A DNA stretch of 34,142 nt from Planctomycetota bacterium (lineage in GTDB: Bacteria > Planctomycetota > UBA8742 > UBA2392). Below, piece by piece: positions 5,313 to 12,133 of this stretch (its first letter is position 1; the number at the start of each line of letters is the position of its first letter). The DNA is taken from contig JAGQRE010000029.1 of assembly GCA_020425695.1 (NCBI GenBank), positions 1 through 34,142 on the forward strand, in the 5' to 3' direction. Both the position numbers and the translations under genes were made by a program. The notes beneath the pieces are model-generated. The model saw nothing but the letters and a program-made list of their open reading frames with translations. It did not search any database and was not told the origin of the DNA.

Positions 5313-6638
5313 ATGCGAGTTTTGACCGCCCTGATCATCGCCAGCCTATCCCTGGCAAGCGTGCTGGCTCAAGACGCCAAGCCTGCGGAACCAGCCGATG
5401 AGGCGCCCGAAGTCGAGTTGACCGAAGATGCCCAGCTTATCCTCGAGAAGCTGGATAAAAACGACGACGGCAAAATTAGCGAGAGTGAATTGCCGCAGCG
5501 TGGGCGCAAGCTCTACATGCGTTTCGACACTGACGGCGACGGCGTACTATCAGGTGATGAGCTGAACAAGGCCGCAAACGCTGCCGCCGATCTCAAAAGC
5601 AAAGCCGTTAAGCGCACCAAAGACAAAGTCGCAAGCGGCATGAAAGAAAATTACGAGCCCGATGAAGCCAGTGGTCTCTACCTGGATGCCGCACGTGACT
5701 ACAACCGTCTTACTAACGGCGAAGCTCTCTACGTCATGAAAGACGGCAAGTTCATCTATGAGGGCTACGACAACGGCTATGACAAAGCCGAGGAACATCA
5801 ACTCGCGAGCGGCACGAAGTCGTACAACGGCATCATCGCCGCCTGCGCAGTTGAAGATGAGTTGATCGAGTGGGATGAACTGGTCTGCAACACAGTCACC
5901 GAGTGGAAGGACGACCCGCGCCTGAGCAAGATCACCGTGCGCATGTTACTGAGCCTTTGCGCGGGGCTCCCGCCGGAACAGGACGCCCTGCAAGGCTTCC
6001 AGACCCAGAACAAGTACGAGTACGCAATCGGGCTCAAGTGCAAGTACGAGCCGGGCAAGAAATTTGAGTATGGACCCGCGCAGTACTTCGCGTGGGGCGA
6101 GTTCATGCGGCGTAAACTGGCGAACAGCGAGAGCTTCAAGGACATGAACCTGACAGACTACTTCATGCACCGCATCGGTGACGCGATCGGCATCAAGCAA
6201 ACCTGGCGAACCGACCGCGCGGGCAACCCCGCAACGCCGCACGGCGTATTCGTCACGGCCGGTGAGTGGGCGAAGTTTGGTGAGTTCGTTCGAATGGGCG
6301 GGAAAGTCGGCGACAAACAGCTGCTTAAGACAGAACTGATGGACGAATGCTTCAAGCCAAGCCCGTGCAATGCCGGGTACGGATTGACCTGGTGGCTCGC
6401 CGGCAGCGACAGCAGTGACGGCGACACCGGTGGGGGCGCAAAGGACGCACAAGGGCGCAGCGCCGGCGAAACACCAAAGTGGATGCCCAGCGACCTCGTG
6501 TTCGCAGCGGGGAAAGGCACGCAGCGCCTGTTCATTTCACGAAAGCTCGGGCTGACCATCGTTCGTTTCGCTGACGACAAAGACACTTTCGACAACAACG
6601 AATTCTTGAGTTGGCTGCTTCGCGGCAAAGCGAACTAG
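5313..6638 (+). CDS. Exported EF-hand serine hydrolase, beta-lactamase-like (class C fold)
   Basis: The 441-residue protein starts with a signal peptide (cleavage near the ASVLAQ/D junction, about residue 20). Two EF-hand calcium loops follow: D48-E59 (DKNDDGKISESE) and D72-E83 (DTDGDGVLSGDE), both with canonical ligands. From about residue 120 it resembles the serine beta-lactamase/penicillin-binding (AmpC-like) family: S166-G-T-K169 is the SxxK nucleophile motif, Y253-G-P fills the Y-x-N position, and a GKGTQ segment near 405 is at the place of the K(T/S)G box. Such proteins usually act as esterases or peptidases rather than antibiotic-degrading enzymes. The EF-hands suggest calcium-dependent stability in the periplasm. 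GAGGTGAG stands just upstream of the ATG. Confidence 0.88.
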   Translation: MRVLTALIIASLSLASVLAQDAKPAEPADEAPEVELTEDAQLILEKLDKNDDGKISESELPQRGRKLYMRFDTDGDGVLSGDELNKAANAAADLKSKAVKRTKDKVASGMKENYEPDEASGLYLDAARDYNRLTNGEALYVMKDGKFIYEGYDNGYDKAEEHQLASGTKSYNGIIAACAVEDELIEWDELVCNTVTEWKDDPRLSKITVRMLLSLCAGLPPEQDALQGFQTQNKYEYAIGLKCKYEPGKKFEYGPAQYFAWGEFMRRKLANSESFKDMNLTDYFMHRIGDAIGIKQTWRTDRAGNPATPHGVFVTAGEWAKFGEFVRMGGKVGDKQLLKTELMDECFKPSPCNAGYGLTWWLAGSDSSDGDTGGGAKDAQGRSAGETPKWMPSDLVFAAGKGTQRLFISRKLGLTIVRFADDKDTFDNNEFLSWLLRGKAN

Positions 6639-6747
6639 GTTCTTCGAACCATTGCCCACTGCTAACCCGTGCGAATCCAACTCGCTTCTGGCGGCATCCA
6701 GTTGAGGACATACACTGTCCGAAATGTCACCACTACTGGAGGTCGCT

Positions 6748-8031
6748 ATGATACTTGCCCGCTTTGGTTCGGCAGTACTGCTGTTGTTGGCGCTTTCTCT
6801 TCACGCTGGAGTGGTAGCCCAGCCAGCCGATACCTCCTCCTCTACAAAGTTGAAACAGGCAATCGCGAAGGAACTTGTCTCCGCAGCCGACGCGGCCTCC
6901 GACAACGGTCAGAACGCAACAGCCGCTGAGTTTCTCAACGAAGCGTTGGTGCTCGTCCCAGAAGACCGGAAGGCAGCCAAAGCACTTGAAAAGCTGGACA
7001 ATGAGCAAAATAGCGAGGACGCCGACGCCGTCGCCAAGTACGAAAAGAAGGTCAACAAGGCGCTGAAGAAGGCGGCCAACGGCTACTGCCAATTGTTCAG
7101 CGAGCTAATCACCGACAAGGACCGCACAACGGTCAACGCTTGGCTTGCACGGGCGTTTGAACTGCATGCTGAAACCGCCAACGACTGGGTTGAGAGTGAG
7201 TATCGAACCCTATACGGCAAGAAGGACTTCGGCGAAGTTTACCGTCTGCTCAATCTCGCACAGTTGCACCCAACCGGCGACGAGAAGAAAGACGTGGCTC
7301 GCGAGTCAGTACTGACTGAGTGTGTCGCCGACCTGAGTGTTCGTAGCCCGCTTCTGATGCAGTGTCGCGACCACGACATGAACTACTACATCTCACTGCC
7401 GGCCGGCTGGACCAAGGACAAAGAGTGGCCGATCTACGTGACGCAAGAAGGTGCTGGCAGCAACTTCCAGGGCATGAACCGCGCCGCGGCCAAAGGCAAC
7501 AAAGAGTTCATCATCATCACCTGCTGCACGTTCAGCAACACGAACTCGCTGGATGGCCAGGCGAAGAAGTACCCCTACACGCAGGAGTTTCTCGACGAGT
7601 GGTCGGGCAACCGTCTCGCTTTTGATGAGCCGGGCTTGTTGGCGGTGATGAAGGAAGTTCGCGAGCTATACAACGGCACTGAAAAGATCTGCATTACGGG
7701 CTACAGCGGCGGCGGGATTCTGACGTGGCACATGGTGTTCAAGCACCCGGACAAGGTCATCGCAGCCGTGCCGGCCTGCGGCAACTTTGCGGGTGCACAA
7801 GAAATCAGCGACGACGCCGAGGCCAAGAAGAAGATCATTGTGCATGCGTACCAAGGCGAGAAAGACCAGCACAAAGAAACCATGCTGGACGCCCAGTGGG
7901 AATCCGCGTTGAAACTTGCGAAAGACAATGGTTACGAGAACGTCAGCCGTGACATCATTCCGGGCGGCCACATCGCCTGCCACCAGCAGGCCCGGGAAGT
8001 GTTTCTCAAAGCCTGCGGAATCGAAGAATAG
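6748..8031 (+). CDS. Exported alpha/beta-hydrolase (esterase / PHB depolymerase-like)
   Basis: This 427-residue secreted hydrolase has a signal peptide (about 1-25, ending in GVVAQ). A helical, lysine- and alanine-rich region with a TPR-like pattern (about 25-190) comes next, then an alpha/beta-hydrolase domain. The nucleophile elbow G-Y-S-G-G-G places Ser at residue 320. Asp373 in GEKDQH and His408 in GGHIACH complete a plausible triad. The oxyanion region EGAGSNFQG precedes it. The arrangement resembles the LpqC/PHB-depolymerase and feruloyl-esterase group; the substrate is not known. ATG 6748 is chosen over 6724 because GGAGGT lies 4 nt upstream and the signal peptide then starts properly. 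It precedes the selenoprotein gene by 119 nt on the same strand. Confidence 0.88.
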   Translation: MILARFGSAVLLLLALSLHAGVVAQPADTSSSTKLKQAIAKELVSAADAASDNGQNATAAEFLNEALVLVPEDRKAAKALEKLDNEQNSEDADAVAKYEKKVNKALKKAANGYCQLFSELITDKDRTTVNAWLARAFELHAETANDWVESEYRTLYGKKDFGEVYRLLNLAQLHPTGDEKKDVARESVLTECVADLSVRSPLLMQCRDHDMNYYISLPAGWTKDKEWPIYVTQEGAGSNFQGMNRAAAKGNKEFIIITCCTFSNTNSLDGQAKKYPYTQEFLDEWSGNRLAFDEPGLLAVMKEVRELYNGTEKICITGYSGGGILTWHMVFKHPDKVIAAVPACGNFAGAQEISDDAEAKKKIIVHAYQGEKDQHKETMLDAQWESALKLAKDNGYENVSRDIIPGGHIACHQQAREVFLKACGIEE

Positions 8032-8109
8032 CCAGAAATGTGTGCCAACGACCAAACGCTTCGGGTTGGTTGGAATCGGCGCGGGCGGTGCGCTGTTGTG
8101 TACACTGTA

Positions 8110-8125
8110 CCGGACGTGTGTCCGG
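8110..8125 (+). promoter_or_regulatory. Inverted repeat upstream of the selenoprotein gene
   Basis: CCGGAC (8110-8115) and GTCCGG (8120-8125) form a perfect 6-bp hairpin with a GTGT loop, 25 nt before the ATG at 8151. There is no T-run, so it is a poor terminator. It could be an operator or leader structure. This is a structural observation only. Confidence 0.35.
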
Positions 8126-8150
8126 CGATGATCAGTTTAGGAGTGCACGC

Positions 8151-8858
8151 ATGCGCAAGCTATTACTAGCAGCGGGTATCCTGATGTTGGGAGTTGGTGC
8201 CGTCAGCACCAATCTTCACGCACAGGACACCCCGGCCAAGAAGGCCGACAAGGAAAACGCGAAGGACGCCGAGGTCACCAAGACTTCAGTCTACAAGGCA
8301 ACGATTGCAGGCATGAGTTGAGGTGTTTCGTGAGTCAAGACGGTCACTAAGACCGTTTCCAGCCTGGAAGGCGTGGACAAAGTTGAAGTCGATTTCGAGA
8401 ACAAGCTAGCAACGATCACCATGAAGGAGGGCGCGACGCTCTCTGAAGAGACACTGAAGAAGGCCTTTGAAGACTCCCGGTTCAGTGTCGAGAAGTTCGA
8501 ATCCAACGATAGCGATGGCGACAAGACAGACGGCGATGATTCGAACGCCGTCGTGCAAGCCGTTCACAAGGCCACGATCACCGGCATGACGTGAGGTGTT
8601 ACGTGAGTGAAGGCGGTCAGCAAGACCGTTTCCAGCCTGGAAGGCGTGGACAAAGTTGAAATCGATTACGAAACCAAGACAGCGACGATCACAATGAAGG
8701 ACGGCAAAACCCTGACAAAGGACGACCTCGAAAAGGCGTTCGATGGCACCAAGTTCGGGGTTGAGTCATTCGAGACCGTCAAGACCGACTCGAAAGAAGA
8801 CTCCAAGAAGGAAGAGCCACCGAAGAAGGACGACAGCGAAGAAGGCAAGAAGAAGTAG
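8151..8858 (+). CDS. Tandem HMA-domain selenoprotein with four in-frame UGA (Sec) codons
   Basis: The reading frame from ATG 8151 to TAG 8856-8858 covers 235 codons. TGA occurs at 8319, 8331, 8592 and 8604 (codons 57, 61, 148, 152) and no other stop. AGGAG stands 7 nt before the ATG. Residues 1-24 form a signal peptide ending in LHA/Q. Two heavy-metal-associated (ferredoxin-like) domains follow, about 47-123 and 138-215, each with YKATIAGMS- or HKATITGMT-like entry, SSLEGVDKVE and ATITMK strands. In both, GM(S/T)-U-G-V-(S/T)-U replaces the usual cysteine pair, giving U-x3-U. The C-terminus is a lysine- and glutamate-rich tail. HMA domains bind soft metals such as copper or mercury; here Sec pairs may bind metal or act in redox. 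The four UGAs fall exactly at ligand positions, which argues against a decayed gene. Read conventionally, the product would be a 56-residue secreted fragment. Sec insertion is inferred. Confidence 0.85.
8338..8370 (+). promoter_or_regulatory. Candidate bSECIS hairpins for UGA 1 and UGA 2
   Basis: Two overlapping RNA hairpins can form. Hairpin A pairs 8338-8345 with 8351-8358 (8 bp, one G-U) around loop ACTAA, 24 nt after UGA 1. Hairpin B pairs 8356-8361 with 8365-8370 (6 bp) around loop GCC, 28 nt after UGA 2. Bacterial SECIS elements lie inside the coding region with the apical loop about 16-37 nt after UGA and usually have a G early in the loop. Hairpin B meets both points; hairpin A lacks the loop G. 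Confidence 0.5.
8611..8643 (+). promoter_or_regulatory. Candidate bSECIS hairpins for UGA 3 and UGA 4
   Basis: These match the first pair. Hairpin A' pairs 8611-8618 with 8624-8631 (8 bp, two G-U) around loop AGCAA, 24 nt after UGA 3; its second loop base is G. Hairpin B' pairs 8629-8634 with 8638-8643 around loop GCC, 28 nt after UGA 4. The Thr-to-Ala codon change between domains (ACG to GCG) swaps an A-U pair for a G-U pair, so the stem survives. Confidence 0.55.
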
Positions 8859-8881
8859 CGCTTGCGTGCGCTGATTCAAAG

Positions 8882-8908
8882 CCGGGTGGGGCATTTTGCC
8901 CCACCCGG
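8882..8908 (+). terminator. Rho-independent terminator after the selenoprotein gene
   Basis: A perfect 11-bp GC-rich stem (8882-8892 with 8898-8908) closes an ATTTT loop and is followed by TTCCTTGTTT. It lies 24 nt after the TAG at 8858. This supports transcription of the whole 8151-8858 unit as one gene rather than a decayed stretch. Confidence 0.85.
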
Positions 8909-9150
8909 TTCCTTGTTTCGGTCTTGCCAGGTTGGCGTGGCTGGTGTGCAGTTGGCAGCGATGATGCAGGTGTGGTTGCGCTCACTCGCTCGCACCGTGA
9001 TTCCGTTTTCGCATTTGCCGGCTTCGCGATTGGGTGGGTCAGAATATGCGCTTCGTCCCATCGGGTACAACATCACAACGTCTTGTCGGGGCTTTGGTTA
9101 TCGACTAACCTTCCTTTGCGCTGACTTTCCGACACTGTGGAGTATCCGAT

Positions 9151-10320
9151 TTGTCCGTGGTTCTGATTGCCGACGATGACGCCAAACTCCGTGCTGAGCT
9201 GAAGAAGGCACTGGAGAAGGCGGGGCATCGTGTTGTCGAGGCCGCGACGGCCCGCGATACGATTTATGAAGCTCAGGATCATGATCCTGACCTTATGCTC
9301 GTCGACATCAGCCTGCCGGGCATGCCGGCACTTCAGTTGCTTGAAGAGATTCGCTCTGAATCAAGCCTCGCACGCGTGCCCATCATGATGATGGCCGAGG
9401 ATGCCGACAGCGAATTGCTGACTCGCACGTTTCGCTGGGACATCGTCGACTTCGTACACAAGCCGCTCGATTACGATCTGCTGGCGGCCAAGGTGGGTGC
9501 ACACACGCGCCTGAATCAGGCCTACAAGTTCAGCCGTAAGCTCAGCAAAGAGATGTACATGAGCCGCATTGATCGGCTCGAAATCGAAATGAAGGCCAAC
9601 GAAGAAGATATCACCGAGGCCGAGCGTCATTTCACCTGGATGCAGCCCAAACCACCGACAGTCGACGGCTACGACATCGACCTGCTGTACCGCCCGTACG
9701 GTCGCCTTGGCGGCGACTTCTATGACTTCGTCTGGCTGGATCGTGATCGTCTCGCCATCGTCGTCGGCGACATTTCCGGACACGGCATCCAAGGCGCGAT
9801 CCTGCAGGCCATGGCGCGAAAGTTGATTAGTCTGGCACTCCGTCAGGAAAACGGTGACCTGCACAAGGCGATCGCCTTCGCCAATCGAGAACTTACGAAC
9901 GATCTGCCGCCGGGCAGCTTCGCGGCCTGTATGATCGGCGTGTTGAACACCGCTACTCACGCGTGGAAGCACGTTCGGTGCGGTGTGCCTTACCCGCTGC
10001 TTATCAAGAATCGCGAGTCTGAATTGCTGGTAACGCCTGGTGGCCCGCTCGGCTTGTCCAAGAAGGCCGATTGGCACATGATGGTCGGCGAGTACGCAAC
10101 GGTTCTTGATGGCCAGCAGACAATGATGCTGATGTCGGACGGTATTATTGAGTGCTATCAGGACGACGAAAACAAAGTCCAGTTTGACGTCGAAGGTGTT
10201 ACCAAGGCTGTCAAAGAAACACGCCCCGGCGACCAGTTCATAGCTACAATCGTTGATGCCGCAGATCTTGAAGCCCGGGCCGACGATGACGCAACCATCA
10301 TCACCATCACCAGACGATAA
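9151..10320 (+). CDS. Response regulator with PP2C/SpoIIE-type serine phosphatase output (RsbU-like)
   Basis: This 389-residue cytosolic signalling protein has a receiver domain (1-120) with acidic D8-D10, phospho-acceptor D52 in LMLVDISLPG and K104 in VHKPLD. A coiled-coil linker follows (about 125-165), then a PPM/SpoIIE phosphatase domain. The metal-binding motifs GGDFYDF (D189) and GDISGHG (D207), then MSDGIIE and the final DDDATIITI, are all present, so it should be active. RsbU-type enzymes dephosphorylate anti-sigma-factor antagonists and so control a sigma factor. The substrate here is unknown; no RsbV/RsbW gene is in the window. TTG 9151 is chosen because GGAG lies 8 nt upstream. A paralogue follows 16 nt later, in one operon. 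Confidence 0.92.
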   Translation: MSVVLIADDDAKLRAELKKALEKAGHRVVEAATARDTIYEAQDHDPDLMLVDISLPGMPALQLLEEIRSESSLARVPIMMMAEDADSELLTRTFRWDIVDFVHKPLDYDLLAAKVGAHTRLNQAYKFSRKLSKEMYMSRIDRLEIEMKANEEDITEAERHFTWMQPKPPTVDGYDIDLLYRPYGRLGGDFYDFVWLDRDRLAIVVGDISGHGIQGAILQAMARKLISLALRQENGDLHKAIAFANRELTNDLPPGSFAACMIGVLNTATHAWKHVRCGVPYPLLIKNRESELLVTPGGPLGLSKKADWHMMVGEYATVLDGQQTMMLMSDGIIECYQDDENKVQFDVEGVTKAVKETRPGDQFIATIVDAADLEARADDDATIITITRR

Positions 10321-10336
10321 ACACCCGGACAGCAAG

Positions 10337-11584
10337 ATGGCGTACATTCTCTTGATAGAAGGCAACGAAGACAGGCGCGGCGAGATCGTCAAAGCGCTTG
10401 AGCTCGACGGGCATACGGTCGAGGCTGTGGGCAATAGTGAAGACGCCCGCAATTCCGTAACCCAAAAGATCCCGGCACTACTGATCAGTGACCAGAAACT
10501 AGGCGATGAGTACGTCGACTTCCTGAATGAAATCACACGCAACCGACGCCTGTCGCGCGTACCCGTCATCCTGATGGTCAGCACGGACGACATGACCAGC
10601 GCATTGACGGCCTACGAGTGCGACATTTTCGCAATCCTGAAGAAGCCGATCGACATCGACTATCTACGGGTGCAGGTTGAGACCGTGCTGCGGCAGACTC
10701 AGCGCCAGAAGCAGTCACGCAAGCGCGAACGCAACGAGTTGCGCAGCCAGATCATGCGCCTGGAGCGCGAGGTCCGCGCGACAACTGAAGACCTCACTGA
10801 CGCAGCACAGAATTTCGTCACGATGCTGGCCAGCCCGCCAAGCCCGCAGGGTATTCGCATTGACGTGCACTACCAGCCGTCTGGCGGTTTCATCGGCGGC
10901 GACTTCTATGACTTCTTCTGGCTGAACCCGCGCGAGTTGTGCGTGGTGGTGGGGGACGTTTCAGGCCACGGCATCCAGGCCGCCGTCATCCAATCCATGG
11001 CCCGCAAAGTCATCAGCATCGGCATGCGTATCAAAGAGGGTAACTTGCGCGAGGGTCTGCGCTTTGCAAACGACGAATTGGCCGAGGACATCCCGCAGGG
11101 GAAGTTCGTCGCGGCCATGGTCGGCGTTCTCGATGTCGTCAGCGGCAACTGGGAGCACGCACGCTGCGGCATCCCGCACCCGGTGCTGCAACATGCGAAT
11201 GGCGAGCACGAAGATGTACTAACGGCCGGCGTGGCGCTCGGGCTGCGGCGCAGTGAGGCGTGGTCAGACGCCATTCAGGTATATCGCACCAACATCGAGC
11301 CCGAAGGGCGCATCGTGATGTTTACTGACGGCATTATTGAGTGCCAGCAGGATGACGGCGAAGAGTTCGACTACGCCGGCGTCCACAAAGTACTCAAGCG
11401 CGCCGCCGTTGATGACAACGTGCCGGAACTGATTTATCAGGCCGCACACGCCGGGCACCGGGCCGTCGACGACGTGCTGATTATCAGCATCACGCGCGAA
11501 CAGGTTGAGCTTGAAGACAGCGGCACGCTGATGAGCTTCTTCGGTGAAGACACCGACAGCGAAAGCCCTTTCCACATCGGATAG
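10337..11584 (+). CDS. Response regulator with PP2C/SpoIIE-type serine phosphatase output, second paralogue
   Basis: The 415-residue protein has the same order as its neighbour: receiver domain (1-120), basic coiled-coil linker (about 125-170, KQSRKRERNELR), then PPM/SpoIIE phosphatase with GGDFYDF, GDVSGHG, FTDGIIECQQDD and a late AVDDVLIISI. Its receiver is partly degenerate: D52 (ISDQ) and a KKP lysine (K103) remain, but the N-terminal acidic cluster reads EGNEDRR instead of a DD pair. A C-terminal extension of about 30 residues is unique to this copy. ATG 10337 is preferred because the receiver begins there, as in the first copy; an in-frame ATG at 10286 would overlap the first gene. The pair looks like a tandem duplication that has diverged. 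Confidence 0.9.
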   Translation: MAYILLIEGNEDRRGEIVKALELDGHTVEAVGNSEDARNSVTQKIPALLISDQKLGDEYVDFLNEITRNRRLSRVPVILMVSTDDMTSALTAYECDIFAILKKPIDIDYLRVQVETVLRQTQRQKQSRKRERNELRSQIMRLEREVRATTEDLTDAAQNFVTMLASPPSPQGIRIDVHYQPSGGFIGGDFYDFFWLNPRELCVVVGDVSGHGIQAAVIQSMARKVISIGMRIKEGNLREGLRFANDELAEDIPQGKFVAAMVGVLDVVSGNWEHARCGIPHPVLQHANGEHEDVLTAGVALGLRRSEAWSDAIQVYRTNIEPEGRIVMFTDGIIECQQDDGEEFDYAGVHKVLKRAAVDDNVPELIYQAAHAGHRAVDDVLIISITREQVELEDSGTLMSFFGEDTDSESPFHIG

Positions 11585-11609
11585 ACGCTTGTTCGGGTCC
11601 GCACCGGAT

Positions 11610-12032
11610 TCAGAACGCCGTCTTCAACTGCGTGACGCCCGGGAAGTCTTTGCCGTTGGGCTTTTCCGTTGAACCACCGGGCACGTTTTTCGTCGCGAAG
11701 TCGAGCCCACGTGACTTCTCTGGTATGGGTTTCGTCTTAATCCCACCCGATCCGATTCGAACCGCGCAAGTTCGAGGCTCGTCGCTGTCGACCTTCATGA
11801 CGAAACTGAGTCGCCCCTCTACGCCGACCGTAAACGCCGCAAACTCAATAATCTTGCGCACCTTGCGCTCGATCTCGTCAATCTCGTCCTTTTGCGCCCG
11901 ACACATCCAGCAATCGTGGTTGTCGCCCGTAGGAACCCAACCCGCAGACTCAAGTGTCTCGCCAATATCGAAACGGACTTCTTCGGGATAGCCCTGACTC
12001 AAGGCCATGATGACTCTGGCTCGTGTAGACAT
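11610..12032 (-). CDS. Hypothetical protein with CxxC motif
   Basis: No family is recognised. The 140-residue protein has no signal peptide or membrane span. It begins MSTRARVIMALSQGYPEE and holds one CWMC motif near residue 41, preceded by a histidine (NHDCWMC), which could bind metal or form a disulfide. A charged helix follows (DEIDEIERKVRKII). The last third is polar and proline- and lysine-rich, and probably disordered. ATG 12032 is chosen because GAGGAGG lies 5 nt upstream; a longer frame to 12119 has no such site. It converges with the second phosphatase gene, with only 25 nt between the two stops. Confidence 0.7.
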   Translation of the reverse strand: MSTRARVIMALSQGYPEEVRFDIGETLESAGWVPTGDNHDCWMCRAQKDEIDEIERKVRKIIEFAAFTVGVEGRLSFVMKVDSDEPRTCAVRIGSGGIKTKPIPEKSRGLDFATKNVPGGSTEKPNGKDFPGVTQLKTAF

Positions 12033-12133
12033 GACGCCCTCCTCTCTGAGTATGCACAACTCGCCCGTGTGCATTAAGTGCAATATACCCCATCGATTTG
12101 AGCTCAGCAAATTCAACAAGGCATTTTCTCAGA

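Follow-up and report, generated by a model that had tools for sequence, protein, structure and literature searches.

How is a reading frame translated that is broken by four UGA codons, each standing where a metal ligand of a heavy-metal-associated (HMA) domain belongs, and what would selenocysteine (Sec) be doing there if these codons are read as such? This question is raised by a gene of a Planctomycetota bacterium (assembly GCA_020425695.1, contig JAGQRE010000029.1, positions 1 to 34,142; the whole of this 34,142-nucleotide stretch is hereafter called the window). Selenocysteine has mostly been studied as a redox catalyst. In the window gene, UGA codons take the place of both ligand codons of a classic metal site, and this occurs twice in one predicted exported protein, so that one may ask whether Sec is used in biology for metal affinity rather than catalysis. 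The gene also poses a decoding problem, with two UGA codons 12 nt apart, twice in one reading frame.

Results

A tandem HMA gene with UGA at every ligand position

The gene occupies positions 8151 to 8858 of the plus strand, on which all features of the window gene described below are located, and consists of a 235-residue frame that runs from ATG to TAG and is interrupted solely by four TGA codons, at 8319-8321, 8331-8333, 8592-8594 and 8604-8606 (residues 57, 61, 148 and 152), in exact agreement with the original prediction. The Pfam HMA profile, PF00403, matches two stretches of the protein, with 79.2 bits for the whole protein against a cut-off of 24.8 (U given as C). The TGA codons fall on the first and second ligand places of domain 1 (8289-8498; GMS-U-GVS-U) and, again, of domain 2 (8562-8774; GMT-U-GVT-U), and the frame contains no Cys codon at all, as had been claimed. 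The metal site usual in HMA domains is C-x2-C, which a match to the profile does not need; in the window protein, it is replaced by UGA at both ligand places, with x3 spacing (U-x3-U), that is, the protein combines an HMA fold with a changed site. The chance of four TGA codons landing on exactly these four codons among 235 is 1 in C(235,4), or 8e-9.

A ribosome-binding site, AGGAG, is located at 8139-8143, 7 nt upstream of the ATG, and a hairpin of 14 pairs resembling a rho-independent terminator follows at 8880-8910, the longest of 4 terminator-like sites in the region, where 1.4 are expected. Of the flanking signals in the original prediction, these two stood up, and the signal peptide (residues 1-25, MRKLLLAAGILMLGVGAVSTNLHAQ; 8151-8225) was judged by eye and is considered here as predicted. 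A sigma-70-like promoter was looked for at the window gene and none was found. A perfect inverted repeat, CCGGAC-GTGT-GTCCGG, lies at 8110-8125, 25 nt upstream of the start codon, and is possibly an operator. The gene is outside any metal or mer operon; its neighbours are beta-lactamase-like, alpha/beta hydrolase and response-regulator/SpoIIE genes, among them a beta-lactamase-family protein with EF-hand motifs (5313-6638) and two consecutive response-regulator/SpoIIE phosphatase genes (9151-11584), whose ORFs overlap where the first one ends.

Genetic code and selenocysteine machinery

The code of this genome is normal, because TGA terminates 3 of the 15 long ORFs of the window and is never internal to them, with 0 TGA vs 127 TGG in 7510 codons. 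Thus, a code change is ruled out, and TGA is a true stop in the neighbourhood, as originally stated. All four components of the Sec machinery, selA, selB, selC and selD, for which a search had been suggested, are in the genome (4.14 Mb, 88.7% complete). The tRNA-Sec is encoded at C272:25305-25393 (72.3 bits; reported by ARAGORN as SeC, anticodon tca) and SelA at C272:26128-27483, a SelB wing domain is found in a 680-codon frame on C285 (56.3 bits), and SelD is encoded on C99. The selD gene has its own UGA at the canonical site (GAG-U-GCK) and is an internal positive control.

Among the 17 genomes of the order, tRNA-Sec was detected in 16, selA in all 17 and selD in 16; in G016 (91% complete), tRNA-Sec and selD were not found, although one U-x3-U domain is present. 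Outside the class, 36 genomes of the phylum have an HMA match, and tRNA-Sec was found in 12 of the 13 in which the match holds TGA vs 10 of the 23 in which HMA matches hold none (Fisher p 0.004, relatedness ignored). The one exception among the 13, in which tRNA-Sec was not found, is G082 (84% complete). The motif was read in 11 of these 13 genomes, with G121 and G322 left out; in G022, U occupies the first ligand place and the second ligand is absent. G081 and G192 carry C-x3-C, yet tRNA-Sec is present.

UGA codons are confined to the ligand loop across the lineage

With the window protein as the query, matches were obtained at 31 places in 14 of the 16 genomes of the family, its own included: one place, the window, with four TGA, 10 with two, 3 with one and 17 with none. 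A profile of 11 Sec-HMA domains, all 11 with TGA in both ligand columns (A2), served to search 17 genomes from the order, 20 from the class and a sample of 392 from the phylum, at most 15 candidates being scored in each genome of the last group. A TGA-HMA domain was found in 16 of the 17 genomes of the order, none being seen in G012, and two-TGA matches were confined to this order among the genomes so searched. Within the order, the sites are U-x3-U, U-x2-U or U-x2-C; the loci fetched from other families of the phylum have U-x3-C, and three genomes (G111, G169 and G082) encode tandem HMA pairs with one Sec per domain (U-x3-C). Paired-TGA domains recur, then, among relatives, as the original prediction anticipated, but the full four-UGA tandem is confined, among the genomes searched, to that of the window, and was not seen in the other 16 genomes of the order. 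Domain 1 of the window protein is closer to domain 2 (68%) than to the other nine A2 domains (40-54%), which suggests, at the level of sequence comparison, that the tandem arose by duplication within this lineage.

For a census of the domain, all fetched loci were conceptually translated, TGA being read as U, and searched with an HMM that had been built from the two domains of the window protein and refined by iteration on the first loci. Identical domains were counted once, except that one G011 domain is entered twice because its end points differ. The census comprises 81 HMA domain sequences from the own and related genomes: 24 C-x2-C, 18 U-x2-U, 13 U-x3-C, 9 U-x3-U, 6 U-x2-C, 2 C-x3-C and 9 others (6 without ligands, 2 fragments and 1 with a single U). 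TGA is present in 47 of the 81 domains, and all 74 TGA codons lie within the first 12 residues, that is, in the ligand loop (2674 codons), in a scan that reads U as Cys and so is biased towards U at the ligand places, although a U elsewhere in the domain would still have been seen. Scattered further TGA codons, of the kind that decay would leave, are not seen inside the domains. A decaying pseudogene or a sequencing artefact, which would account for four nonsense codons under the standard code and for a four-UGA tandem in a single genome, is rejected as having a negligible probability: not one of the 74 TGA codons is off the ligand loop, the 47 TGA-bearing domains come from many separate genomes, and the frame is otherwise open and has a ribosome site and a terminator. 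Together with the chance estimate given above, this bears out the original argument against random decay.

The alignment of homologues places Cys or UGA in the column of codon 57, the first ligand of domain 1, and likewise assigns codon 61 to the second ligand of domain 1 and codons 148 and 152 to the two ligands of domain 2. Five C-x3-C homologues (L107, L108 and the database proteins P0003, P0005 and P0012) have Cys aligned with both TGA columns, in keeping with the original expectation. Other residues are found at the ligand places in 6 of the 81 HMA-like domains; these are diverged neighbours, not orthologues of the window gene. Three HMA-like frames of this kind, in which the ligand places hold no Cys and no UGA, lie near Sec-HMA genes (L053 8264-8629, L052 7867-8103 and L055 8134-8412). 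Sec at all four places is likely because nearly all relatives examined have UGA or Cys codons there. Of the 83 database matches, scored only among the 7998 candidates sharing most words, 65 have C-x2-C, 15 neither spacing and 3, those named above, C-x3-C. A protein search with the window protein, U written as Cys, returned no homologue, and neither did two contig-pattern scans, one of which used Cys-codon patterns, so that TGA forms could not match.

Sec is not the only amino acid by which a UGA might be translated. Bacterial tRNA-Cys variants that read UGA have been described, and the Cys homologues carry Cys at these very places, as would be expected if a suppressor tRNA with anticodon UCA inserted Cys or another amino acid. 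We consider this highly improbable, given that the only UCA-anticodon tRNA in the own-genome loci scanned is tRNA-Sec, that selA, selB and selD are encoded in the genome, and that UGA stands beside ordinary Cys codons within single motifs, in the 6 U-x2-C and 13 U-x3-C domains of the census. Decoding of the UGA codons as selenocysteine is, by comparison, very likely.

The lineage also exposes an annotation blind spot. The database protein P0010, annotated as 'heavy-metal-associated domain-containing protein [Planctomycetes bacterium]', is the mere tail, past the UGA, of the Sec protein L113 (genome G366, same phylum), and looks as if a gene caller had restarted after the UGA of this U-x3-C protein. 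P0010, P0013, P0015 and P0017 are database proteins of 57-58 residues that start just before the second ligand Cys, and the latter three resemble P0010, as judged from the protein sequences alone.

Candidate SECIS hairpins downstream of the UGA codons

The published bSECIS model, in the part of PMC13188914 covered here, has a stem of 4-16 bp, a loop of 3-9 nt with a G in one of its first two places, a loop located 16-37 nt after the UGA and an energy of at most -7.5 kcal/mol. In each domain of the window gene, a SECIS-like hairpin of 8 bp, with the loop starting 24 nt after the first UGA, is followed by a second hairpin. The hairpin of domain 2 (8611-8631; loop AGCAA) agrees with the full published model, at -9.2 kcal/mol, a value matched by 0.5% of the synonymous shuffles; that of domain 1 (8338-8358) fits in stem and spacing, its loop, ACTAA, being without the required G. 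The hairpins for the second UGA codons (8331 and 8604) have only -2.9 kcal/mol, and 46-48% of the synonymous shuffles are equal. Over the whole set, single uninterrupted stems agreeing with the full model follow 10 of the 28 first and 3 of the 13 second UGA codons.

Hairpin 1, at the place defined by the first UGA, was examined in A3, an ungapped alignment of 21 U-x3-[U/C] sites, in which its loop starts 24 nt after the first UGA. Pairing is seen in 76% of cells vs 65% in shuffles and 31-46% when the frame of pairing is slid, and covariation is 0.315 vs 0.177 in shuffles, a value reached by 0 of 500 (for 21 sites, with shuffles that ignore relatedness). Two of the five covariation measures are unremarkable: 6 of the 8 pairs changed on both sides somewhere, which 27 of 500 shuffles reach as well, and pair types, which 142 of 500 reach. 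RNAalifold predicts the inner 4 pairs. At least 4 bp are formed at this place in 16 of the 21 x3 Sec sites, 2 of 6 x2 sites and 1 of 12 Cys controls. When the best hairpin was sought without a fixed position and compared with synonymous-codon shuffles, the combined p was 1.3e-5 for 28 Sec sites and 0.13 for the 12 Cys controls, among which the lowest values belong to the two C-x3-C genes L107 (p 0.06) and L108 (p 0.01). The L107 hairpin sits at the SECIS-like place and both genomes keep tRNA-Sec; perhaps, L107 and L108 are former Sec genes. By total folding energy, the Sec sites were not clearly better than the Cys controls (p 0.09); the energy of the whole region is a poor test for SECIS, and therefore fixed-position hairpins were used.

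The second hairpin (8359-8376, CCAGCC-TGGAA-GGC(G)TGG, in domain 1; 8632-8649, of weak energy, in domain 2) has its loop 31 nt after the second UGA and is a possible SECIS for that codon. Its counterpart, GCCTGGA[A/T]GGC, is found at the same distance in 10 of the 13 sites with two UGAs, and at least 4 of its 6 pairs form in 10 of 13 two-UGA sites, all of them from one order, 3 of 14 one-UGA sites, a count that left out the Sec-thioredoxin site, and 2 of 12 Cys controls. Taken one by one, the sites are no better than their synonymous shuffles (lowest p 0.06), and no covariation was found for hairpin 2, which covariation cannot support because this hairpin hardly varies. Given no covariation, weak energy and shuffles not beaten, hairpin 2 is not upheld as a proven SECIS. 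A staggered twin arrangement, with one hairpin per UGA, remains a suggestion.

Selection past the UGA codons and the predicted fold

Past the second UGA, the two window domains differ with a dN/dS of 0.33 and the G009/G010 pair with one of 0.27; for the other seven comparisons, over 36 codons each, the values are 0.65, 0.58, 0.84, 0.71, 0.21, 0.55 and 0.70. Together with the otherwise open frame, these values speak for translation past all UGA codons, although not strongly on their own. AlphaFold2, given a 13-row alignment, predicts two beta-alpha-beta-beta-alpha-beta units, mostly with pLDDT >90, and the whole-chain pTM of 0.43 means that the model does not fix the mutual placing of the domains. 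Both domains have the ferredoxin-like fold with the metal loop before helix 1 in the predicted model, the first UGA of each lying in the loop preceding this helix and the second in its first turn. The best Foldseek matches (2ew9, 7si6, 7si3, 2rml, 1p6t, 2rop and 1osd) are to ATP7B, CopA and MerP, in agreement with the sequence search. The flanks of the HMA domains are rich in Lys, Asp and Glu.

These results bear on whether the UGA codons might mostly stop translation, yielding a short secreted peptide, or act as a switch that permits the full length only at plentiful selenium. Such a reading finds a footing in the conventional ORF list, which splits the locus into ORFs ending at 8321 and starting at 8607, and in the inefficiency of recoding: according to the part of PMC4513850 covered, E. 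coli recodes a UGA at 30-40%, so that four in series might give little full-length protein. Nevertheless, it appears to us quite improbable, if a shade less so than a suppressor tRNA, considering that dN/dS past the second UGA is low in the two closest comparisons (if up to 0.84 elsewhere) and that residues past the UGA are needed by the HMA fold in the predicted model.

Paralogues adjoin MerR-type regulators or are fused to a thioredoxin-like domain

Although the window gene has no metal-related neighbours, its paralogues do. A MerR-family gene, a possible outer-membrane protein, a Sec-HMA gene and a Cys-HMA gene occur in this order in the own genome (C44; locus L018, about 5649-7979), in G011 (L053, about 8973-12105) and in G013 (L054, about 6700-9604), in what appear to be operons, the Cys-HMA gene following the Sec-HMA gene directly or after another Sec-HMA gene. 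MerR and HMA genes are arranged in the same order in G014 and G015. The Sec-HMA motifs of the MerR-containing clusters are GMDUGQU, GMDUGGU or GIDUGGU, and the operon Sec-HMA protein has a U-x2-U site and, by eye, a lipoprotein-like signal. The barrel matches are below the Pfam cut-offs (14.5/21 and 21.5/28.7 bits), and the barrel of L054 was judged by eye. The MerR-type regulators have a Cys near residue 80 and further Cys residues later, a pattern that we take to resemble that of divalent-metal sensors. L054 also contains, at about 9650-10445, two more small frames that carry TGA codons in pairs (EYGQUGEDUPGF and PDFLUAGUGPRN), one of which precedes an HMA-like domain without ligands.

In another contig of the own genome (C298; locus L015, minus strand, about 6880-8378) and in G009 (L051, 8907-9949), the cluster consists of a U-x2-C HMA protein (GFLUMQC) and a U-x2-U HMA domain fused to a thioredoxin-like domain that has U-x2-C, and a MerR-family gene is present in L015 only. 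In G009, both HMA genes of the cluster adjoin a gene of the window-protein type. By eye, two frames just upstream of this cluster (L051 7702-8852) resemble the transposase pair of an insertion sequence. In C298, the frame of the MerR-family gene runs up to a TGA (L015, about 8045, minus strand), with an in-frame Cys 8 codons later; this TGA is presumably at the place of the first metal Cys of a CueR-type regulator, and no homologue was found by which to decide between a stop and Sec.

The fusion is a reason to ask whether Sec is decoded but serves redox chemistry, with the U-x3-U pairs cycling as diselenides on an HMA scaffold, for instance in the reduction of disulfides or peroxides in the periplasm. 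In addition, the part of PMC13188914 covered regards uncharacterised selenoproteins as mostly likely redox in function. Against this stand the location of the ligands, which occupy the metal-binding loop of an HMA fold that is predicted to be intact and has the GM(S/T) motif, the MerR-type regulators adjoining the paralogues, and the lack of a thioredoxin domain in the window protein itself. Soft-metal binding is favoured over redox because of the HMA-like fold and the paralogue context, and we therefore regard a redox protein as unlikely, albeit the most serious of the competing explanations.

Discussion

A probable selenium-based metal site

Taken as Sec, the four UGA codons likely form all-selenolate soft-metal sites. 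The combined proposition, that all four are read as Sec in a predicted exported protein of which each domain clasps one soft metal ion, is in our view probable. The metal and the predicted export are parts of this reading that we infer from family resemblance. In mechanistic terms, SelA, SelD, SelB and tRNA-Sec would decode the four UGA codons as Sec, with SelB presumably recruited by the hairpin past the first UGA of each pair, and the second hairpin, further downstream, may serve the second UGA. The signal peptide, which precedes the two HMA folds, would direct the protein past the inner membrane, and the charged flanks would be in keeping with a trap or shuttle that is soluble in the periplasm. 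In each domain, a single soft metal ion, such as Hg(II), Cu(I) or Ag(I), would be held between two selenolates. Compared with thiolates, selenolates remain deprotonated down to a lower pH and have a higher affinity for soft metals, and from this general chemistry, Sec may have been chosen for soft-metal affinity. The thioredoxin-like domain with its own UGA in the paralogue fusion could keep the Sec pairs reduced.

A fuller picture can be drawn only tentatively, and we give it slightly less than an even chance: an exported protein with two all-selenolate sites and staggered SECIS, one per UGA, would be part of a selenium-based metal-handling system of this lineage that comprises U-x3-U, U-x2-U and U-x2-C HMA proteins, MerR-type regulators, outer-membrane proteins and the Sec-thioredoxin. 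Regardless, the substitution recurs across the lineage with every step visible, from C-x3-C through U-x3-C to U-x3-U, so that the question of Sec for affinity becomes testable.

Comparison with known systems

The HMA domains of CopZ, ATP7B and CopA have the predicted fold in common with the window protein; these domains use C-x2-C and act mostly in the cytosol. In two printed alignments, the known HMA chains are one residue shorter in the loop than the window protein. MerP is a periplasmic single HMA domain. Against the MerP family (TIGR02052), the window protein, a tandem with four UGA codons, scores 60.8, with a cut-off of 92.55. A Sec-containing mercuric transport protein MerP is named in the selenoprotein table of the GOS survey, in the part of PMC2398784 covered. 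The family NF041115 (UxxU_metal_bind, metal-binding (seleno)protein; 74 model positions) likewise has an HMA-like domain and, as described in the covered part of PMC13188914, a UxxU motif with 2 Sec; the window protein, with 57.5 bits, is below its cut-off of 95 and, unlike NF041115, has U-x3-U rather than U-x2-U, two domains, four UGA codons and a predicted signal peptide. By these scores, the window protein belongs to neither NF041115 nor MerP. NF045683, a MerT/CopZ fusion-like heavy metal transport selenoprotein, matches HMA domains at about positions 145-226, and the window protein, with 48.9 vs a cut-off of 375, matches only this later part. No NCBIfam cut-off was passed by the window protein or by the nine other Sec-HMA proteins tested; one relative with tandem domains, L100, does exceed the threshold of TIGR00003, a model of copper ion binding proteins (65.5/62). 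Vertebrate selenoprotein P is an exported protein rich in Sec, but it has a different decoding signal and no HMA domain.

As to novelty, the covered part of the 2026 review PMC13188914 counts 119 selenoprotein families or subfamilies, of which the majority have a single Sec and a few have 2-3, and its table, to the same extent, has no four-Sec protein and no tandem HMA entry. Nor does a four-Sec tandem HMA protein appear in the portions covered of PMC13188914, PMC2398784, PMC5029168, PMC9312934, PMC12013277 and PMC1088965, and the text of PMC4807772, on planctomycete genomes, has, in the part covered, no heavy metal, copper or mercur. The original claim of novelty accordingly stands for the four-Sec tandem among the entries compared and is narrower than was implied: the two-Sec UxxU family (NF041115) and Sec MerP are known already, and Sec-HMA proteins are numerous in the lineage to which the window protein belongs. 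Within these sources, so far as covered, its four Sec in two tandem U-x3-U domains exceed the maximum of 2-3 Sec given in PMC13188914.
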